Of a DNA stretch of 64,000 bases, positions 48,345 to 60,786 are shown one piece after another. A model generated the notes under the pieces. That model was given only the letters and a program-made list of their open reading frames with translations. It made no database searches and was not told the origin of the DNA. Numbering within the stretch: position 1 is the first letter of the stretch; each line of letters begins with the position of its first letter. A program made the position numbers and the translations under genes. The stretch is from Mesomycoplasma hyopneumoniae J (GTDB lineage: Bacteria; Bacillota_I; Bacilli_A; Mycoplasmatales; Metamycoplasmataceae): NCBI RefSeq assembly GCF_000008205.1, contig NC_007295.1:186001-250000 (forward strand), given 5' to 3'.

Positions 48345-49397
48345 ATGTTAAAAAAAAAATTTAGAAAAATTTTAGCTTTATTCTTGCCAGTTCCACTTGT
48401 TTTTTTAACTTCTTATTCTTGTTGAAGTTCACGAATTAAATCAATTAGATCAGCAATTAATGAAAATTTTGGGCCAGATTTTGAACTACCAGAAAAACAG
48501 GGAGTTTTTAAAAAACAAGATCCAAGATCATTTGATCTTTATGTATCCGAAGTTAATGCAATGCAGTTAAAATGATTTTTAAATAAGTCAAGTTTAATTG
48601 ACTTATCCCAGGAAGAAAAAAACAAAATTTATGCTTCAAAACTCGCAAGATATTATGTTTTTGATAACAAAAATCGAATATTAGCAGATGAGGATAAATT
48701 TAAGGCAGAGCAGGACATTAACCCTACCTTTTTAAAAAAAGTCTTTGAAAAAGCAGCTAATTCTTACTCAGGAGACAAAACAAATAATCAAGGAGAGTCT
48801 AATAAAAATAGTTTTGAGAAACTAGATAATTTTAAAATTTACCGCGAGATTTCAAAAATTTTTGATTCTAACTGGCGTTTTCTTGAGGTTAGACTTATAA
48901 AACCAGGGATAATTGTACCTGATAAAAAAAATTATATTTTAATAAATGCTTATAAGATTTATTATACAAATCCTGTTGATTTTGAAAAGAAAAATGAGGC
49001 AGAAAAAACTGAAAATACTGAAAATCAAGCCCAAAACAATAAAAACTGGCGAATTAAAGCTCCAAATCAAAAACCAGTCACGCTTTTACGACTTCATTGA
49101 TATAATAAAAATTTAGAAAATCCTTTTAAAATTGAGTTTAATTCAATTGAAAATCCAAATTCTGAATATGACTTACAAATGATAAATGATATTGACCAAC
49201 CCGAGTCAATAGCTGATTTTGACTTTAATTTTTCAAGGATAAATTCTAAAAATACCTCAGAACCACTTGAAATTTTCCATTCAGAACCATTTATTCGTCT
49301 AGTTTCGCAAAGTTTTGCAATCCCTTTTGATGGTGAAATTACAGATTTTGAAGCTGAGGATTTTAAATTTAAATACGTGTTTAACGAAAAAAATTAA
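48345..49397 (+). CDS. Lipoprotein of unknown function
   Basis: Predicted 350 residues, hidden by TGA Trp codons. N-terminus MLKKKFRKI followed by a hydrophobic stretch and a Cys at residue 26 (LTSYSC), a mycoplasma-type lipoprotein signal; the next codon is a TGA Trp. The mature part is Asn/Lys/Glu-rich, with three or more Trp. I recognise no domain. It is surface exposed if lipidated. Own extended -10 upstream and a palindromic terminator downstream; next rightward unit is the opp operon. Confidence 0.8.
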
Positions 49398-49481: not shown

Positions 49482-49509
49482 AACGTAAAAAATTATAATT
49501 TTTTACGTT
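49482..49509 (+). terminator. 28-base perfect palindrome after the lipoprotein gene
   Basis: AACGTAAAAAATTA and its exact complement, 84 bases beyond the stop codon. Forms a 12-bp or longer hairpin; the following sequence is A-rich, so termination strength is uncertain. Confidence 0.55.
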
Positions 49510-49561: not shown

Positions 49562-49567
49562 TATAAT
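49562..49567 (+). promoter_or_regulatory. -10 of the opp operon leader
   Basis: Perfect TATAAT 33 bases upstream of the leader ORF ATG and about 290 bases upstream of oppB. The preceding sequence (TTTTTATGGTATATT) is T-rich without a clear -35. Confidence 0.45.
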
Positions 49568-49594
49568 TAGTCTTTAAAAAACGAAAGGGTGAAG

Positions 49595-49774
49595 ATGCAA
49601 GCAAAAAACAATTTATCTCAATTTGTGAATATGATTTTTTCTTATAAAATCAATTTTTTTGCATTTTTATTTTTGAATATTTTTTCTAGATCTTTCTCAA
49701 TTAATAAAATTAAGCAAATTTTGAATAATAAATCAATTAACTGTTTGCCGTTTTCGAATCTAATAATTATATAA
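49595..49774 (+). CDS. 59-codon leader ORF before oppB (candidate leader peptide)
   Basis: ATG 49595 follows AAAGGG (49584-49589) at a proper distance; a GTG at 49589 could also start it. The 59 residues are hydrophobic and rich in Phe, Ile and Asn (NFFAFLFLNIF in the middle; NLIII at the end) without being a recognised protein. Its last seven codons (49748-49771) form the left arm of a hairpin that excludes the terminator following at 49797. It therefore has the geometry of an attenuation leader peptide. It could also be a small membrane peptide or a non-coding stretch. Confidence 0.5.
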   Translation: MQAKNNLSQFVNMIFSYKINFFAFLFLNIFSRSFSINKIKQILNNKSINCLPFSNLIII

Positions 49775-49802
49775 TTTAAAAAAAATATTAGATGAGAAAC
49801 GG
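49748..49802 (+). promoter_or_regulatory. Candidate antiterminator hairpin of the opp leader
   Basis: ATCTAATA (49758-49765) pairs with TATTAGAT (49786-49793), and CCGTTT (49748-49753) with AAACGG (49797-49802), separated by a small internal loop. AAACGG is also the left arm of the terminator at 49797-49818, so the two structures cannot coexist. Confidence 0.5.
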
Positions 49803-49822
49803 GTTAAAAAACCCGTTTTTTT
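49797..49822 (+). terminator. Intrinsic terminator in front of oppB
   Basis: AAACGGGTT (49797-49805) and AACCCGTTT (49810-49818), 9-bp stem with four G/C pairs, AAAA loop and a run of seven T (49816-49822). It ends 34 bases before the oppB ATG and is the most GC-rich hairpin in the window. Confidence 0.88.
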
Positions 49823-49855
49823 ATTTTAAATATAAATAACGAAGAAAGGAACAAA

Positions 49856-50956
49856 ATGTCTTTAAAAAACGAAGAAGGCCAGCGTCTTGGGCCAGGTTCT
49901 AATATCCTAAATTTTTCGGTTTCGAAAATAAATCCAAAAAGTATCGATTATAATCTCATTTATTCAGTTGTAAAACATAAAAAAAGTCGGTTTTCTTGAC
50001 TTAAATATATAAACTTTGAATCTTTTGCATTTCGATTTTTTAAGAAAATTACTAAAATTTTTCTTGAATTTGTAATAGTAGCTTGAATAGTTGCAACTTT
50101 GGTTTTCTTGTTAATTGATTCTATTCCCGGAGATCCAAGTTTTCTTGATGGACTAACAGAGGCCCAAAAAACAGCAGAAAAACAACTTTATGGACTAGAT
50201 TTACCACAAGCACAACGTTATTTTAATTATTTATGAAAGTTTATCCATTTTGATTTTGGAATTTCTTATAGTTTAAGGCCGCGTGTTGAAATTAGTGATT
50301 TTATTTGGCAAAGATTTTTTACCTCATTTTCAATTGGTATTGTCTCAGTTGTTCTTACAATTCTAATCGGTGTTCCCCTCGGAATTGCTGTTGGTAAAAA
50401 TCCAGGTAAATTTTTGGATAATTTTGCAACAATTTGGATTGCGGTTTTTTCATCAATTCCGTCACTAGTTTTTGCTTTACTTTTATTAATTTTTGGCCAA
50501 AAGACTGGAATTCCTTATATTTTTAATATTCAGGATTTTTCTACTTTTGTCCTTCCAGCGATTGCACTTTCAATTGGATCGGTAATTAGTTATGTCCGTT
50601 ATATTCGGTTTGAGCTAAATAATGAGCTAAATTCGATGCATGCAAAGTTTGCTTATCTAAAAAATTTAACAAGAAATCGTTTTGTTTGAACTCATGCTCT
50701 TAAAGCTTCGCTTTTTCCAATTGCAACTTTTTTCCCAATTGTTGTTCTTGGCTCATTTATTGGATCAATTTTTGTTGAAAAGATTTTTTTAATTACCGGT
50801 TCAGGAGGTATTATGATCGATGCAATTCAGTCAAAAGATAATAATATCATTCTTTTTTTGGTAATAGTTTATTCACTTTTGACAATAATTTCCTATACTT
50901 TAAGAGATATAAGTTATGAATTACTTGATCCGCGAATTAGAAGGAGAGCAAAATAA
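49856..50956 (+). CDS. oppB: Oligopeptide ABC transporter permease OppB
   Basis: Predicted 366 residues. After a 75-residue cytosolic N-terminus there are about six membrane helices. The first periplasm-side conserved part is LIDSIPGDPSFLDGLT, then YGLDLPQAQRYFNYLWKFIHFDFGISY, and the cytosolic EAA-type loop is around YIRFELNNELNSMHAKFAYLKNL, followed by GSFIGSIFVEKIFLITGSGGIMIDAI. Imports peptides with OppC, D, F and A. Several TGA Trp codons. AGAAAGGA ribosome site. Stop overlaps oppC (TAATG). Confidence 0.95.
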
Positions 50957-51921
50957 TGACCCATTTTCCTTCAATTGAGAAATATATTGACCAAAACTTA
51001 AAACCAAACCCATTTTTACAACCTTTTTCTTATAAAATGTGGAAATTGATGGTTGCTCAGGCCAAAAACTTTGATCGAAATTATTTTGGTAAACCTCGGA
51101 ATAATTTCTATGAAGTTTTTTTAAGATTTTCACGTTCATTTTCCGGAGTTTTTGGTCTTGTTACTATTGGATTTATGCTAATTTTAGCACTAATTATTCC
51201 ATTTACAACCGGATCGCCGACAGAATTACGTCCTAATATGAAAAATATTAACTATTTTAGTCAAGGATTTATTCTTGGAACTGACTCACAAGGTCGCGAT
51301 GTTTGGGCATTTTTATGGCACGGGCTGCGTTTTTCGTTAATTTTAAGTTTTATTGTTGCTCTTTTTGATGTAGCCTTAGGGACTTTATTTGGGACCTTAA
51401 TGGGAAATTTTGATCTTTTTGATAAAATTTTTACTTTTATTATTAAGATAATTTCTAATATCCCAACAATCTTAGTAATTATTTTGATGACTTTGGTTCT
51501 TCGGCCAAGTTTTTGAGTTCTAATTTTGTCTTTTTCACTTACAGGGTGAATTGGACTTGCAAATCAAGTTCGAGCCCAAATTAAAAGAGCAAGAAATTTT
51601 ACTTGGGTGATTGCCTCTAGAGTTTTAGGTACCCCTTCTTATAAAATTCTTTATAATTTTGTCCCGGTAATTATTCCGCTTTTAATTACAAATATCGTTT
51701 TTGTAATTCCTGGAACAATTCTTGGTGAAACTGGACTTGCATTTATTGGACTTTCACTTCCAAATGTTGCTACTTTAGGTAATGCAATTAATGCGGGAAT
51801 TCCAATTGTAACTTTATATCCCCGTTATGTTTTAATTCCTGCATTTTTCTTAATTTTACTTACCTCTTCAATTCAAATGATTGGAAATTCAGTTCAGGAT
51901 GCCCTAAGGAGGCAAAGATAA
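50956..51921 (+). CDS. oppC: Oligopeptide ABC transporter permease OppC
   Basis: Predicted 321 residues: N-terminal region, then six helices; LGTDSQGRDVWAFLWHGLRFSLIL is the OppC signature, GTLFGTLMGNFDLFDKIF follows, and the cytosolic loop RARNFTWVIASRVLGTPSYKILYNFVPVIIPLLI contacts the ATPases; then GETGLAFIGLSLPNVATLGNAI. Two TGA Trp codons. It overlaps oppB by one base and is one base from oppD. Confidence 0.95.
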
Positions 51922-51922
51922 A

Positions 51923-53335
51923 ATGATTTCGTATTTTTATTCAAAATCAGCACCGCAGTGTCTTAAAACTGAAAATCCCAGATTTTGTTATAAACTAAAT
52001 AAAAATTTAGTAAAATTTCAAAAAGAATTAGATCTATTAAAACAGAAAAAACTTGCACCAAAAGAATATGAAAGCCAGTTTAGTGATCTAAAAGAAAAAT
52101 TTTTAGCTTATGAAGTTAATATAAAAAAACATTATCAGGCAAAAAAATCCTATAAATTACGTGCTATTTGAGATCGGATTCAAAAATATTGACATACAAG
52201 CTTTAACAGATCCCATTTTGATTTTGAAGCATTTTCTAAAAATGTTGAATATAAACAAATAGGAAATAAACGTCATAAAATTGTTGCCCAGATCAAAAAT
52301 TTAAACCTTTCCTTTGTCAATCCAGCAAATCCCGAGATTAGAAATATCGTGATTCGTAATGCCTCAATTGATTTTTATGAAGGCGAAATTCATGCCTTAA
52401 TTGGCGAGTCTGGTTCAGGAAAATCAGTAATTACTTCTTGTCTTTATGGTCTTGTCGGTCAAAACGGGGTAATTGAATCAGGTGAAATCAAACTTTTTAA
52501 CAATCCAGTGCAAAATTTTGATTTTCGTGCTTGAGAACTTTCAAATTATCGGGGAAAAGTTATTTCAGCTGTCTTCCAGAATCCGATGTCAACTTTAAAT
52601 CCAACAAAAAAAATAGGCATCCAAATTATGGAAGGAATGTTATTAAACAAGATTGTTAAAACGAAAAAAGAAGCCTATGAAAAAGCACTTTTATATCTTA
52701 GAATGACCAAAATTGCTAACCCGGAAATGGTTATGAAATTATATCCCCATGAGCTTTCAGGAGGTATGATTCAAAGAATTGTGATCTCAGCAATTTTATC
52801 ACTTGAACCTAAAATTATCGTTATGGATGAACCAACAACAGCTTTGGATACAACCGTGCAAGCTTTAGTTCTTGATATTATCCGCGATCTCCAAAAAAGA
52901 CTAAAAATTACAATTATTTTCATTACTCACGACCTTGGAGTTGTCGCTTCTCTTGCAACTTATATCTCAATTATGTATGCTGGTCAAGTTGTCGAGGAAG
53001 GTACAAGAGATGAAATTCTTTTAAATCCAAGACATCCATATACTTGAGGGCTAATTACTTCAATGCCTGATGTCAATAAAGGCGAACGACTTCAGTCAAT
53101 TCGCGGGGTTGTTCCTTCTTCTTTAAATTCAATTGTTGGCGATGCTTTTGCAGTTAGAAACGATTATGCCTTAGAACAAGATTTTTTTATTGAACCTAAA
53201 TTTTACAGAATAAGTCCAACTCACCGAGTCAAATCAGCTTTACTTGATCCAAAAGCACCAAAAGTTGTCCCACCAAAAATTATTTACCAAAAATGACTGC
53301 AATTTGCAAAGATGAGGCAAGAAAATGGAAGATAA
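51923..53335 (+). CDS. oppD: Oligopeptide ABC transporter ATPase OppD
   Basis: Predicted 470 residues, longer than the usual 330 because of a 120-residue N-terminal, Lys-rich and partly coiled region before the ABC domain (starting near residue 115). Walker A GESGSGKS at 161-168, Q-loop FQNPMSTLNP, signature HELSGGMIQR, Walker B IIVMDEPTTALD, H-loop THD. The C-terminus has the OppD tail (RHPYTWGLITSMPD) but no obvious Cys4 Fe-S motif. Several TGA Trp. Its end overlaps oppF by 11 bases. Confidence 0.95.
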
Positions 53336-54656
53336 AAAAAGATTTTACCTAGAAAAAAATAGTTATTTTTTTGGCAAGATAGTAAAAAATATTTACCGCG
53401 CCCTTACACCCGGTATTGAAAAAATGCTTGAATTTAAAGGCAAATCACCAATTGTCAGCTTTCGAAATGTTGATATTACCTATGGAAGTGGTTCAAGAAA
53501 AAACAAAGTAATTCATGATATTAGTTTTAATATTTATGAAGGTGAAGTTCTATCCTTTGTTGGTGAATCTGGTTCTGGAAAATCAACAACAGGTTCAGCA
53601 CTTGCGGGTTTAGTTCCCCGTAGTTTTGGTCAAATTGTAATTAACGGATTTGAGCTACCAAAAAATATCCGGAAAATAAAGGCAAAAATTCTTGGAAAAC
53701 TAGTCTCAAATGTGCAAATGATTTTTCAAGATCCATTATCTTCATTAAATCCTTATAAAAATATTTATGATGTAATTACAGAAGGTCTTGTAAATTTAGA
53801 ACAACGCCAAAAAGGTTCAACGAAAATTTTATTTTCACAACATTATTACCAAAATACATTTGAATCTTTAGTTTCTGCCCTTAAAAAGCAAAAAATTTCT
53901 CCAGAAATTATCCAGCAAATTAATAATAATTTCTATAAAAATACAAAGGACATTCCTGTTGAAAATTTGTTTAAAACTCTAATAAATTACCTTGAAAAAC
54001 TAAGAGTTATCGAGACTAAAATTATTGACTATATTCAAAAAAAGTCTTTATTTTTACAGGATTTTTTAAAAAAACCACTAAAAGATATTACCTATAAATA
54101 TGTTATTGACATGTTAGCCTCTGTTGGACTTGATAGCTCAGTTTTATCCCGTTATCCACTTGAATTCTCAGGGGGTCAACAACAAAGAATTGGAATTTGC
54201 CGGGCTTTATTATTAAGACCAAAAATTCTTGTTGCCGATGAACCAATTTCAGCTCTTGATGTTTCAATTCAAGCACAAATTATTAATATTTTTAAGGATT
54301 TAAAAGAAAAATATAACCTGACAATCTTTTTTATTTCCCATGATCTACGAATGGTTGAATATATCTCTGATCGAATTGCGGTAATTTATCGGGGAAGAAT
54401 TTTAGAAATTGGGCCTTCAAAGGAAATAATTAAAAATTTTTTGCATCCTTATACAAAATCATTAATTGAATCAATTCCAACAATTGAATCAAAACGAGGA
54501 TCGCTTGCTGGTTATGTCTATGATCCAAAAATACATCAATATGATGAAAAAAATCAACCTCAATGAATTAATTTAGGAAATAATCACTATATTTTAGCAA
54601 CTTTTGCCGAACTAAAAAGGTGAAAATTAGGAGACTATAATTATGAAAAAATCTAA
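53325..54656 (+). CDS. oppF: Oligopeptide ABC transporter ATPase OppF with large insertion
   Basis: Predicted 443 residues. Walker A GESGSGKS starts at residue 80, Q-loop FQDPLSSLNPYKN, signature FSGGQQQRIGICRALLLRPK at 281-300, Walker B ILVADEPISALD, H-loop SHD, and the tail HPYTKSLIESIPTIES. The distance from Walker A to the signature is about 195 residues, roughly 90-100 more than usual; the insert (about 150-245) is helical and Lys/Gln/Asn-rich. The last 30 residues follow a TGA Trp. Its end overlaps the next gene by 14 bases. Confidence 0.94.
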
Positions 54657-57600
54657 TATTTTGCTTAGTTATTTATTAGCAGGCGGAATTCTTGCTGGGG
54701 CTTCAGCCGGAATTATGGGTGGAATTAAAATCTATTCAGAAAATAATGAACTAGGTGTCTATGATATTGATGTCCAATCAGATGAAAAAGTTGATATTAA
54801 AGATGATCAACTAGTCTATGCAAATTTTAAAAATGCCCAGGGCCAAACAGTTGCTGCTTTTGAGAATCTAAAAGATCCAAAAACAATTTTACTTGATCCT
54901 AAAGTAAAATCTGAAAAAAGACGGTTTAATGAAGTCGAATTTGCCGATTGGTTTGCCGATAATTATAATCGGCAAACACCAATTTTTGAACTAAAAATTG
55001 GATCAATGCGTTTTGTTAATGAATATTGAGATTCACTTTTACCTTCAGAATTTATCAAATATGCCCAATGATTTAACAAAAATGTTGCTTGAGGACCAGA
55101 TGCAATTACTCTTGAACATTTTGCCTTAAAAAAAGGGGTTACAAGATCTGGGAATAATTTATTATTAGGACAACATGCAACTGAAAGAAAAGAAGTGACA
55201 AAAATTGAGTTCTATCCTGATTCATTTTTTGGTTCTTTTCCAATTTATTCAGCCCTTACTGGAAAAGGAAATAGCGATGATAATCTAACTTATAAAATTT
55301 TTCATAATCCAATTTCAAAAGAATCACTTGATAAGTATTTTGAATCAATTCCAACTCAGCAAGTTTTAGCAAATTATGATAAATCCAAAGTAAGTGCCGG
55401 AATTCCGGCAATTGATTTAGTCGAAAATGAAGATATTTATTTTTATGATTTAGTAAAAATTCTTAAAAAATCTTTTCCACAAAACAAAGAGATTCAAGAT
55501 AAATTAGCCAAAATTACAAATGAGGAAAATTTTTTTGTCTTTGCCGATCCAAAGCAAAATCTTGATCAAGTCAAGAAAAAATTTGAATTAGCAATTCTAA
55601 TGCTTGCCGATGAAAAGGATATCCAATTACCGCAGAATTTTCAACTTATTTTCCCAGAAGATTTTACAAAAACTCGGAAAATTAAGTGAATTCGAAGCGC
55701 ATTATCTCCCTTCAATCAACAAATAAAACATGATGCAAATAATATTCCCCAAGGTGTTTTTTTACTTAAACTTGAAGATTTAATGTCAGAAAATCCTTCT
55801 AAACAACCAAAAGATCTTCAAAATCAAGCACAAAAACCAACACAAACTAGTGATCAAGGAAAAAAACCACAAGTTCAGCAACCAAATCAAAGCCAAGCTC
55901 AAACAAAAGATTTCCGCTTTTCAATAAATCAGCAAATGAAAGCGAATCGTGTTGCCCTCATAGTTGGGGAATTAACAACGAAAATTCACCAAAAAGCTGA
56001 AAAAATTGCAAAAGAAGGGTTTTTTGATCTTTATAATATTAATCATCCTGTTGGAAAAATAATTGCAATTTACCAAAATAGTCCAGAAAATCGCTTATTT
56101 TTGCCAGTTGATTCCAAAAATCCAGCCTTAGAAGCCGAAAATGAATTTATAACCCAATTTGATGCAAGTAAATTTTCCACCTATGAAATAAAAACAGCAA
56201 AAAAATTATCAAATTATAAATTAGAAATTGAACTTGTTGACCAAAAAGATAAAAAGTCAATTAAAAAAATTATTTTTGACCTTGATCCAAAAGGTAAAAA
56301 TTATCAAAGTCAACTTGAAGAATTTAGTAGTTTTAAAATTGCAATTGACTGGAAAAACCGGGCAATTCCAAGAGTTATTCAGGAAATTGAAACTTTAAAA
56401 GACGGTAAATCAACAACTGTTTATCAACTTTATGCTGAAGTTTTTGATGGACTAATTGATAAAGTTCTAAACCATCGAAAAACTAATGGTGAAAAACTTG
56501 TCGGAACTTATATTATATCAGAAGTTGATCCAAAAACAGGACTAAAAACCTATCAAACAAAACAAGGTAGTTTTATTGGATATTCCCAATCATCCCGAAT
56601 TCCTTATATTTCCCTTTTAAAAGCCTCCTCGCCATTTTTTAAAACTACGGGAATTAACTACCTTAAATATGTAGGCGCTCATGAATATGGTCATCACCAA
56701 ACACTAAATTATGCCCAGGATATTTCCGATCCAGATTCAAGTATTATTCTTGATGCGATCTCAACAAATACCGGGATTGGTTTGCAATCTTTTTATAATT
56801 TAGATGTTCTAAGAAAATATCTCCATGCACGTTCTTCGGGTCTAGACTTAAGAAAAGCAGGGCCGAGTTTAGAAGCGCAAAAAAATGGAATTTATCCAAA
56901 TTTTACTTTTAATCGCGATAATAAATTTGAAAGTGAAGTCGATATTTATGGATCAAATGAAAATGATGAGGTTGATTCATTATTAACTAATAAATCTCGG
57001 CGTTTTTTGCAGACAATTGATGGTCTAAAAACCGCGGCTGACTTAAGAAAGTTAAAATTATACGATCTTTTCCTTTTAAATTCAATTGATCCAGAATCTG
57101 CAACTATTAATCCTTCAATTAAAGATTCAGCAAAATTTTTTAGAAATGACTGGCAGACAATCGAGGATCAAAGTAAAAAAGGATTTATAAATTCTACTGA
57201 ATCCAAAAGTTTATTTGGAAATTCATTAACAGATGCAGCAGGAAACTTACTTGAATTTGATGAAAAAGGTAAATTAATCGTTGCCGAATTTAAGGAATCT
57301 GAGGATAAAAGAACCTTCAGTGATCTTAAAGTAAAAGTGTTTTTTGCAAATGGAAGACCAGCAATTGATTCGACAATTTTTACAAAACCAAACAGCCTTA
57401 GTGAATTAAAAGCAAAAATTGCTGAGATTCAAAAAGCATTTTCTGATAATGTTGTTTCTAACTTCGACAATAATGGCTGAGATACAAAAGCCGAAGGATT
57501 CTCCCGTTTTCTTCCTTCTAATCCTTTTTTTGCTAAATCACTTAGTGCAATTTTAGCAAATAATGCCGAAAAAGAAGCATTTTATGGGACAAAAATTGCC

Positions 57601-60600
57601 GATAATCCATCTAAATTAGAAATTAGTGTTGAACTTCCTAGTTCAGTTTTTGATCCTAGTCAAATTCTTAGTATTGTAAAAAGGTATATAAAAGATGAAG
57701 AAGCAATTAAATTAGGTGAAAAATTAGTTCAAGATAGTAAAGGCAAATTAGATTTTCCTACTTTTCTTTCAATTTTAAATAAAGAAGAACTTACTAATGG
57801 TAATTCTTCAGCAATAACCAAATTATTTGAAAAAATTTTTCTAACTCCGATAACAGAGAAAAAAGATTTATATACCGATCTTAGAAATATCACCTATTTC
57901 CGTGATTCTTTAGTTGGAAAAATTGATTTAGCTGTTGAATTTATTCAAAATATTTATAATATTTATTTTGAATGACTCCAAAATCAAAGCCTCGGGATAA
58001 ATCAGGCCCTAAATACTCCAAAACCAAATACTACCCCGGATAGAAAAGCTCTTGTTTTAAAAAGTTACTGAAACTTTGTAGTTTCTGACCAGATTTGGAA
58101 TAATTTAGACAAAATTTTTATTATCAAAGGTGAAAAAAATCCTGAAAAAATACCTTCTCGGTTTTTTTCTGCAATCCGAAATTTCCATCGATTAACACCG
58201 AATGTTTATGATAAAAATTTTGTTAACTTAACACAGGGGGCAGTTTTCGCTTCAAGTCACCTTGGAAAATTAATTTCAATTAATGGAAATGAATATTATC
58301 AAAATCCAAAATATGACTTTCTTGCTACAGTTACAAGTGGGGGAAAAAATTATCTTGTCCTTGATCATTCAGAATTTGATGTAAAAATTCGATCTTTAAT
58401 GCGAAGATGAATTTCGCCACTTGGGAATTTGCTTAAATTTGATAAGGTTTTACTTGAGGATAAAAATACAAATCCGAAATTAAATCCATTTTTTGGAATT
58501 GCTCAGGATTTTAAATTTAAAATAGGTCCAGATCAAAAAATTGATACTTCAAAAATTTATTTAGATGCCTGGGATAAAACGCTTTTTGGTTTTGATTATA
58601 ATAATAATTATTTTGGATTTCAAAATGAACAAAAAGAAACTGTATTTTCAAGTATTTCTGATTTTATTGAGTTTATCTCAATTGATCCTTTCGCCCTTAG
58701 AGTAACAAAAAATGGCGAAGATTTTATCCGAAATTGAAGTCTTGATTATGTAAATTCTAAATTTGATTTATATAGATATGCTTTTGATAGGCTTCAAAAA
58801 GAAAAATTTGTTCTAAAATCTAGCACAAATAATCAACTTACCTGGAAAAAGGAGCTAAAATCTACAGAAATTATTGGAAAACTTTTAGCTAATTTTGAAA
58901 TTAGCTCTGAAAAATTATTAGAAAATTTACAAAAATATGCAAATTTTCTAATGGAAGCTTTCGATAAATCAACGCTTAATTTGTTACTTAAAAATTCTAA
59001 AATTGAAAACAAAAATATTGATCCTTTATTTTTATCTTCAATTGGATTTATGGGATTTAAAAATTATGCCCGTAAAGTTGATGAAAATTCATTACCAGCA
59101 ACAAAATTTGGTAAATTAACAAATCTTGATAGAATTAAAACACCTGAGACAACTTGGTTGACTTTTTCAACTTTCCTAAAAGAAAATTCACTTGTTTTCG
59201 ATAATGAAGATTTTGTTAATGATGATCTTAATAATTCAAATAAATCACTTGTATATAAATGGATTTTAAATTTCTTAGAGGATAAAAAAATTGAATTTAA
59301 AGATCTTGATTTATTTAGATTACAATATCTAGTCGGAACAAAAACCTTTGCTGATTATACACAGGAAGATGGTCTTATTAAACAAATCCAAAGAATGGAT
59401 GTCGATCTTGGACTTTCTTGGCTAAGATCGAAAAATTTAGCAAGATTTGAAACTCGTGCCGATGATTTCTTCTCTAATTATGTCTATTCTTTCCCTGAAT
59501 CTCTAACTCGTGATTTTGTCCAAATTCATTATTCGCCAAGTACCGAGGAACTTGATAATATCTCCCCATTATTTAAAAAAATGACGGAAGCAAATACTGG
59601 AAATGAGTATTTTGTTGATGGAATTTATACAAGAAAATGAATAAAAAATTTCATTCCGGCCTTTGATATTTCCCAGGCCTATGCCCAAAATTTAATTTCC
59701 CGGTTTAGCAATTTCTTCCTTACAAGTTTTGTAATAACAAGAAACAACGAGAATCTTGAAAAATTATATCAAAATTTACTAAAAGCATTTAAAAATGCCC
59801 AAAGTAAAAATTTATATCAAAAATTCAATGACTTATCCAGTCAGCAAGAAGCTGAAATTAAGAAAATTATTGGATCTCAAGAAATTCCGTCTAAATTCAT
59901 TGATAAAGTTCTCCAAGAAATTGAAAACGTAGACAAAATCAATGAGATCTCCAGTAAAATCAATAGGCAAAAAGCCGATCTTTTCAGCGAACTAACAATT
60001 GAAGTTAACCGAATTATGCAAGATTATCAAGGCGAACTTGGAAATTATAAAAATTATCATAATCTTAATATTCAGCCAGTTGTCGGAAATAAAACCTGAA
60101 TAAACGGCTATATTAATAAAAATGTCTTAACAAATAACGGGTTTTTCAAAGATCGTTTCCAAAGAAAAGTACTTAATTGAGAATTATATGATGATAATTT
60201 AGAGTCGGTAAAAGATCCAAATATTCGAATTAAAAATCTAAATGGAGAAAAAGTCGATAATCGTGCCGAGGCATTTTGGTATTATTCTCTTAAAACTCAA
60301 GGTGTAGGCCAAAGATCAGTTTCGGGAATCTGGCGGGATTCAAAACATGATAAGGTTGCTTTTTGGGGATTCTTTAAATCTCAAGATGCAAATAAGGCCC
60401 ATTTTCTAACATTAGAAGATGAATCTACTGGTCAAAAATTCTACATTCAACTAGCTACAAAAGGGACAAACAATATTTTTTATCTAAAAAAACAAGCAGA
60501 TCTTAGCTCTAAATGAACGCTTGAAAATGAAGGTTATAAATCCTGAGTTTCAGCTTGGTCAATTATTGGGGAGTTTAAAAATGCCCTTTTAAGACCCGGT

Positions 60601-60786
60601 GTTTCTGGAATTAAAAGATTTAGAATTTATTTCTCTGATCAAAAAAGACAAGAAATTAAAGGATTATTTACTTTAGGTAATACAAAATTCATCGCCGAAA
60701 ATGGAAAAAACTATCAAACAGCACCAACTTATATTGAAAAAACCGCAAAAGGTAACTATTTGGTAATAAGGCCACAATTTAAATAA
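54643..60786 (+). CDS. Giant surface protein with PDxFFG and HExxH motifs
   Basis: Predicted 2047 residues, with many TGA Trp codons. N-terminal hydrophobic segment (about 7-28) without a lipobox, so anchored or secreted. FYPDSFFG at 190-197 matches the mycoplasma 'PDxFFG protein' family known by that motif. A zincin motif HEYGHH (680-685) is followed by ISDPDSSIILDAIST, compatible with a metalloprotease. A Gln/Pro-rich linker lies at about 385-420. The start overlaps oppF and it precedes an OppA-like gene, so it belongs to the opp operon. Protease activity is inference; no closer family was recognised. Confidence 0.85.

Follow-up and report, generated by a model that had tools for sequence, protein, structure and literature searches.

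The closest described system to the one reported here is the bmrB leader of Bacillus subtilis, a 53-codon reading frame before the ABC-transporter genes bmrCD whose efficient translation leads to termination and whose slowed translation leads to read-through (PMC4191407). In B. subtilis vmlR, translation of an upstream open reading frame (uORF) likewise sets the choice between an antiterminator and an intrinsic terminator (PMC9226507). The position of the ribosome on the leader ORF makes the same choice in the trp, his and pheA leaders of Escherichia coli, and T-box and other Rfam leaders place terminator and antiterminator before amino-acid-related genes in Gram-positives. Protein regulators are few in mycoplasmas, which rely on peptides taken up from outside, and to our knowledge few regulatory uses of ribosome–polymerase coupling are known in the Mollicutes. 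Here we describe a candidate attenuator before the oligopeptide-uptake (opp) operon of Mesomycoplasma hyopneumoniae, a mycoplasma of the pig lung.

The opp leader resembles bmrB in having a leader ORF before ABC-transporter genes, mutually exclusive terminator and antiterminator, and a decision that would be made by the ribosome (PMC4191407). The bmrB terminator, however, is internal to the ORF; that leader also has a predicted anti-antiterminator, is induced by antibiotics that target the ribosome, and controls a multidrug exporter, as tested by experiment (PMC4191407). The putative opp attenuator has its terminator 3′ of the ORF and would serve a peptide importer. The vmlR uORF differs again, lying within an anti-antiterminator hairpin in a response to antibiotics that involves NusG pausing and (p)ppGpp (PMC9226507). 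The E. coli leaders are short, with codon runs for the amino acid under control and an extra hairpin (1:2), none of which is seen in the opp leader. Unlike the T-box and Rfam leaders, the opp leader includes an ORF in its decision region and gives no Rfam match of useful score: at gathering and relaxed thresholds no real match, to T-boxes or to known riboswitches, was found.

We found no report of opp attenuation in mycoplasmas in the searchable literature, and papers on the terminators, repeats, sRNAs and transcriptome of M. hyopneumoniae mention no such leader in their main texts. Within that literature, an opp attenuator of the classical kind appears to be new for mycoplasmas. It would bring ribosome-mediated attenuation into the Mollicutes, and its conservation would offer a concrete answer to how mycoplasmas match peptide import to demand.

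Architecture of the opp leader

Coordinates refer to the window, the 64,000-nucleotide stretch of the M. hyopneumoniae J genome that was analysed. The promoter hexamer and the ribosome site were read from the sequence, and the features of the leader and operon are as follows.

49562 to 49567, plus strand: −10 hexamer TATAAT of the leader promoter (predicted)
49582 to 49588, plus strand: Shine–Dalgarno-like ribosome site of the uORF, CGAAAGG
49595 to 49774, plus strand: leader uORF of 59 codons (ATG at 49595, stop TAA at 49772-49774)
49748 to 49765, plus strand: 5′ arm of the antiterminator (arm A), CCGTTTTCGAATCTAATA, made of the last uORF codons
49786 to 49802, plus strand: 3′ arm of the antiterminator (arm B), whose 3′ part AAACGG (49797-49802) doubles as the left arm of the terminator
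49794 to 49821, plus strand: predicted intrinsic terminator hairpin (B with C), about −14 kcal/mol, followed by a U run
49856 to 50956, plus strand: oppB, first gene of the operon (ATG at 49856)
50956 to 51921, 51923 to 53335 and 53244 to 54656, plus strand: oppC, oppD and oppF, downstream of oppB

Transcription is predicted to start at about 49574, some 20 nt 5′ of the uORF, which has no in-frame TGA and reads identically in translation tables 4 and 11. Arm A contains CCGTTT (49748-49753), complementary to AAACGG at 49797-49802, and an adjoining stem pairs ATCTAATA (49758-49765) with TATTAGAT (49786-49793). The terminator, with 12 pairs, was recovered independently of the original prediction, all of whose coordinates match the sequence: the stop codon, CCGTTT, the 8-bp stem, AAACGG and a terminator before oppB are where they had been placed. 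The identities of the Opp genes were confirmed with the Pfam models BPD_transp_1, ABC_tran and oligo_HPY and with the NCBIfam Opp models.

We note two further sequence features near the leader. An exact 16-bp direct repeat, GTCTTTAAAAAACGAA, occurs at 49570-49585, near the expected RNA start, and at 49858-49873, over codons 1-6 of oppB. A perfect 28-bp palindrome, AACGTAAAAAATTATAATTTTTTACGTT, lies at 49482-49509, in the gap that separates the upstream gene from the leader promoter, and is possibly an AT-rich terminator of that gene or an operator site.

The competing pairing against chance and across the genome

When the 5′ arm of the terminator pairs within the 110 nt that precede it, the energy gain is 8.4 kcal/mol. 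Dinucleotide shuffles gain 3.3 ± 1.6, and 2 of 300 reach the observed value. A scan of both strands of the complete 897,405-bp genome gives 82 terminator-like sites, and of these the opp terminator ranks first in its upstream competing pairing. Other high-ranking "antiterminators" in the genome (at 622174, 624159, 625368 and 279080) look accidental and were set aside.

A covariance model searched against 15 genomes of the genus returned a single convincing site per genome, solely at opp and with no convincing second copy, which indicates a dedicated element and not a repeat. The model also matches the minus strand weakly at these sites; such matches mirror the hairpins and were discarded. In the rest of the family the model gave one weak match (G023, E = 0.005). 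The second opp-like locus of each genome carries no such element, L016 having one weak hairpin.

Conservation across the genus

The gene oppB is present in all 15 species genomes of the genus, and in 13 of them it is preceded by the full architecture in the same order: a −10-like hexamer, a ribosome site, an ORF of 44-62 codons, an antiterminator with its 5′ arm at the ORF end, and an intrinsic terminator. Every one of these 13 leaders has a TATAAT/TAAAAT-like hexamer about 25-50 nt 5′ of the uORF start and a GGA/GGG motif at the position of the ribosome site; the terminator of L012 was missed by a stricter scan and found by a later one. The relatives include G014 (Moose RK) and G007 (M. ovipneumoniae SC01), together with G004, G003, G001 and G002, which we take to be M. 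flocculare, M. dispar, M. bovoculi and M. conjunctivae, respectively. The element is absent from M. hyorhinis (G005; upstream region L015) and from G013 (L014), where a different gene lies directly upstream of oppB. In other genera of the family, an upstream terminator candidate was found in 1 of 70 oppB upstream regions (L138). The element may therefore have arisen within the genus, or it may have been lost in the hyorhinis branch.

Over 10 aligned leaders, 87% of the antiterminator cells are paired, seven cells show double changes, and the covariation score is matched by 1 of 500 shuffles, a count that is not a probability because the sequences are related. The register is sharply defined: sliding it by one column lowers pairing to 56-65%, and the drop is sharp for slides of 1-3 columns. 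The original prediction had staked itself on the competing stems being kept in relatives, and they are indeed kept, both hairpins persisting through compensatory changes. RNAalifold on the leader alignment gives the terminator alone, as the two structures are mutually exclusive.

Two leaders deserve separate mention. In L013 (probably M. conjunctivae), which falls outside the alignment, the whole stem is replaced (AACTTGCT with AGCAAGTT) and both alternatives still form; 2 of 300 shuffles give an equally good antiterminator. L012 keeps the layout, with an antiterminator energy no better than that of shuffles (69/300).

The leader ORF

The uORF is open in 13 of 13 leaders, while the other two frames of the sequences examined carry 1-8 stops. 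In most informative leader pairs dS exceeds dN, and amino-acid identity is above a column-permutation null (p < 0.05) in 6 of 10 pairs, which are not independent of one another. The coding signal is moderate, and the uORF looks translated.

Its stop lies in or beside arm A in every one of the 13 leaders: in M. hyopneumoniae it follows the arm by a few nucleotides, in Moose RK and L012 it falls within the arm, and in L013 it coincides with the first bases of the arm. This constancy is the strongest hint that the arrival of a ribosome at the ORF end matters. The peptide itself is weakly conserved and drifts far between lineages, with a hydrophobic, Phe-rich core common to most, a pattern suggesting that translation as such is what matters. 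It has no match in Pfam or NCBIfam, and no convincing relatives of it were found elsewhere in the genus.

Folding energetics

As long as arm A is free, the energies of the ON and OFF folds lie −5.5 to +4.5 kcal/mol apart in 12 leaders. When about 30 nt around the stop are blocked, 8 of the 12 favour OFF (termination) by 4.7-13.5 kcal/mol. The exceptions are the four leaders of the ovipneumoniae group, whose stop is displaced about 9 nt downstream; a ribosome parked there would leave part of arm A free, and the antiterminator would persist. The idea that a ribosome at the stop covers the alternative arm and allows termination therefore holds for the blocked folds of eight leaders and fails for these four; in them, either the ribosome would act by unwinding in transit or a larger footprint should have been assumed. 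For M. hyopneumoniae itself, the equilibrium favours the terminator (+4.5 kcal/mol). Consequently, antitermination there would need kinetic trapping, for which the order of synthesis provides, since A:B can form before C is made.

Proposed mechanism

From this anatomy, its conservation and its covariation we infer that the uORF is translated, that polymerase terminates or reads through, and in which direction and to what signal the switch responds. RNA polymerase would start about 20 nt 5′ of the uORF, with a ribosome loading and following it. The uORF end (arm A) could then pair with B to give the antiterminator, or B with C to give the terminator before oppB. Brisk translation to the uORF end would open or cover A, allowing B:C to form, transcription to stop and opp to be off. 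If translation were slow, stalled upstream or never initiated, A:B would form as B emerges, and polymerase would read through into oppBCDF, turning opp on. The signal would most likely be the general translational or amino-acid supply of the cell, not one amino acid, given the lack of a codon run and the mild Phe enrichment described below.

We give a probability of roughly 0.72 to the reading of the opp leader as a ribosome-mediated transcription attenuator whose signal is most likely general translation or amino-acid supply. Counting against it are the four ovipneumoniae-group leaders, the antiterminator energy of L012, the equilibrium preference for the terminator in M. hyopneumoniae, and a leader that at 59 codons is long for classical amino-acid attenuation and has no codon run. 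The element looks real, conserved and functional, and would be a circuit of known type in an unexpected lineage and operon. Ribosome–polymerase coupling, linked to NusA, has been seen in M. pneumoniae (PMC8116511), and mycoplasma genomes were found to lack a gene for Rho (PMC4411717). Ribosome-mediated attenuation agrees with both observations.

A second layer of control is conceivable. By folding of 49583-49676, the ribosome site and start of the M. hyopneumoniae uORF can pair with the U-rich codons 22-30 of the same ORF, an arrangement striking by eye. Against a codon-permutation null, such a hairpin is clear in L003 (0/200), suggestive in L013 (7/200) and not above the null in most leaders. 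We also observe that in L013 an unrelated sequence can form the corresponding pairing. We consider it doubtful that this hairpin hides the ribosome site once polymerase is beyond about codon 30, leaving a lone pioneer ribosome (or one physically cued) to decide the fate of each opp transcript. If it did, a genome-reduced parasite would meter peptide import by the speed of a single ribosome, using no dedicated protein regulator.

Alternative readings of the leader

The original prediction had the ribosome stall on scarce Phe, Ile or Asn codons. In its most specific form, scarce charged tRNA-Phe would stall the ribosome in the Phe-rich core (codons about 20-33), leave arm A free and turn opp on. 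Phe is enriched 2.2- to 3.5-fold in 10 of 13 leaders, most of which share that core. The enrichment is, however, missing from L009, L012 and L013, and an equal Phe count is reached by 183 of 3822 ordinary 59-residue windows of the proteome (4.8%). No leader has a run of codons for a regulated amino acid; the Phe codons are scattered and not adjacent as in trp or his leaders. A single amino acid would also be an odd signal for a general peptide importer. We therefore regard Phe-specific attenuation as unlikely. Of the attenuation originally proposed for opp, the terminator and antiterminator, the translated-looking uORF ending in an arm and the clade-wide presence of both stand, and it is the sensing through scarce codons that we would drop.

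Very unlikely, in our judgement, is a choice of hairpin made not by the ribosome but by a protein or small molecule bound to the leader, with the uORF incidental. The antiterminator is by itself a complete switch, and a dedicated regulator is possible; such a factor would nevertheless leave unexplained why the uORF, its ribosome site and the position of its stop are kept in all 13 leaders, with frame-biased substitutions. The leaders also match no Rfam riboswitch, and those examined show no clearly conserved structure outside arms A and B.

Sensing by the nascent peptide is, to our mind, a still poorer prospect. Here the hydrophobic core would arrest the ribosome, by a ligand or by membrane insertion as in TnaC and MifM, and so set the choice of hairpin. 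A length of 44-62 residues would indeed put the core near the tunnel exit with the ribosome at the stop in most leaders. Against this, the peptide drifts strongly between lineages, its C-terminal part, which would fill the tunnel, is unconserved, and the core keeps no fixed spacing to the stop.

Finally, we find it scarcely credible that the leader holds a plain terminator, or a hairpin protecting the RNA end, with no regulation and with an accidental alternative pairing. AT-rich RNA does pair readily, and M. hyopneumoniae has many predicted internal terminators, with read-through considered for some (PMC4411717). Against accident stand the first rank among 82 sites, the shuffles, the covariation, and L013, where a stem of different sequence still makes both pairings. 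Ribosome-mediated attenuation by general supply thus remains our preferred reading.

Neighbouring loci

Upstream of the leader, a 350-residue lipoprotein-like gene (48345-49397) has similar sequence at the same place in several relatives; it gave no Pfam or NCBIfam match. Downstream, overlapping the end of oppF, 54643-60786 encodes a 2047-residue PDxFFG protein (NCBIfam NF012210) with an HEXXH-like motif, AHEYGHH. This protein may be part of the opp operon and is possibly a surface peptidase feeding Opp.

An A tract of 15-19 bases lies about 68 nt 5′ of the uORF start in L004, L005, L006, L008, L009 and L012. It ends at one place, just 5′ of the expected −35 region, and its length differs between genomes, making phase variation of opp transcription possible. 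In L007 and L010 the A tract is lost beside unrelated, partly transposase-like upstream sequence.

Elsewhere in the genome, the rimP-nusA operon (about 758,137-757,980 on G000:C1, minus strand; upstream regions L149-L160) likewise shows a terminator directly behind the promoter (AGGTTGTC...GACGACCT), seen by eye in 12 of 15 genomes. Upstream of it, AACCTT can pair with the AAGGTT arm in most leaders of hyopneumoniae, flocculare and the ovipneumoniae group, and this leader may be a NusA-autoregulated attenuator.
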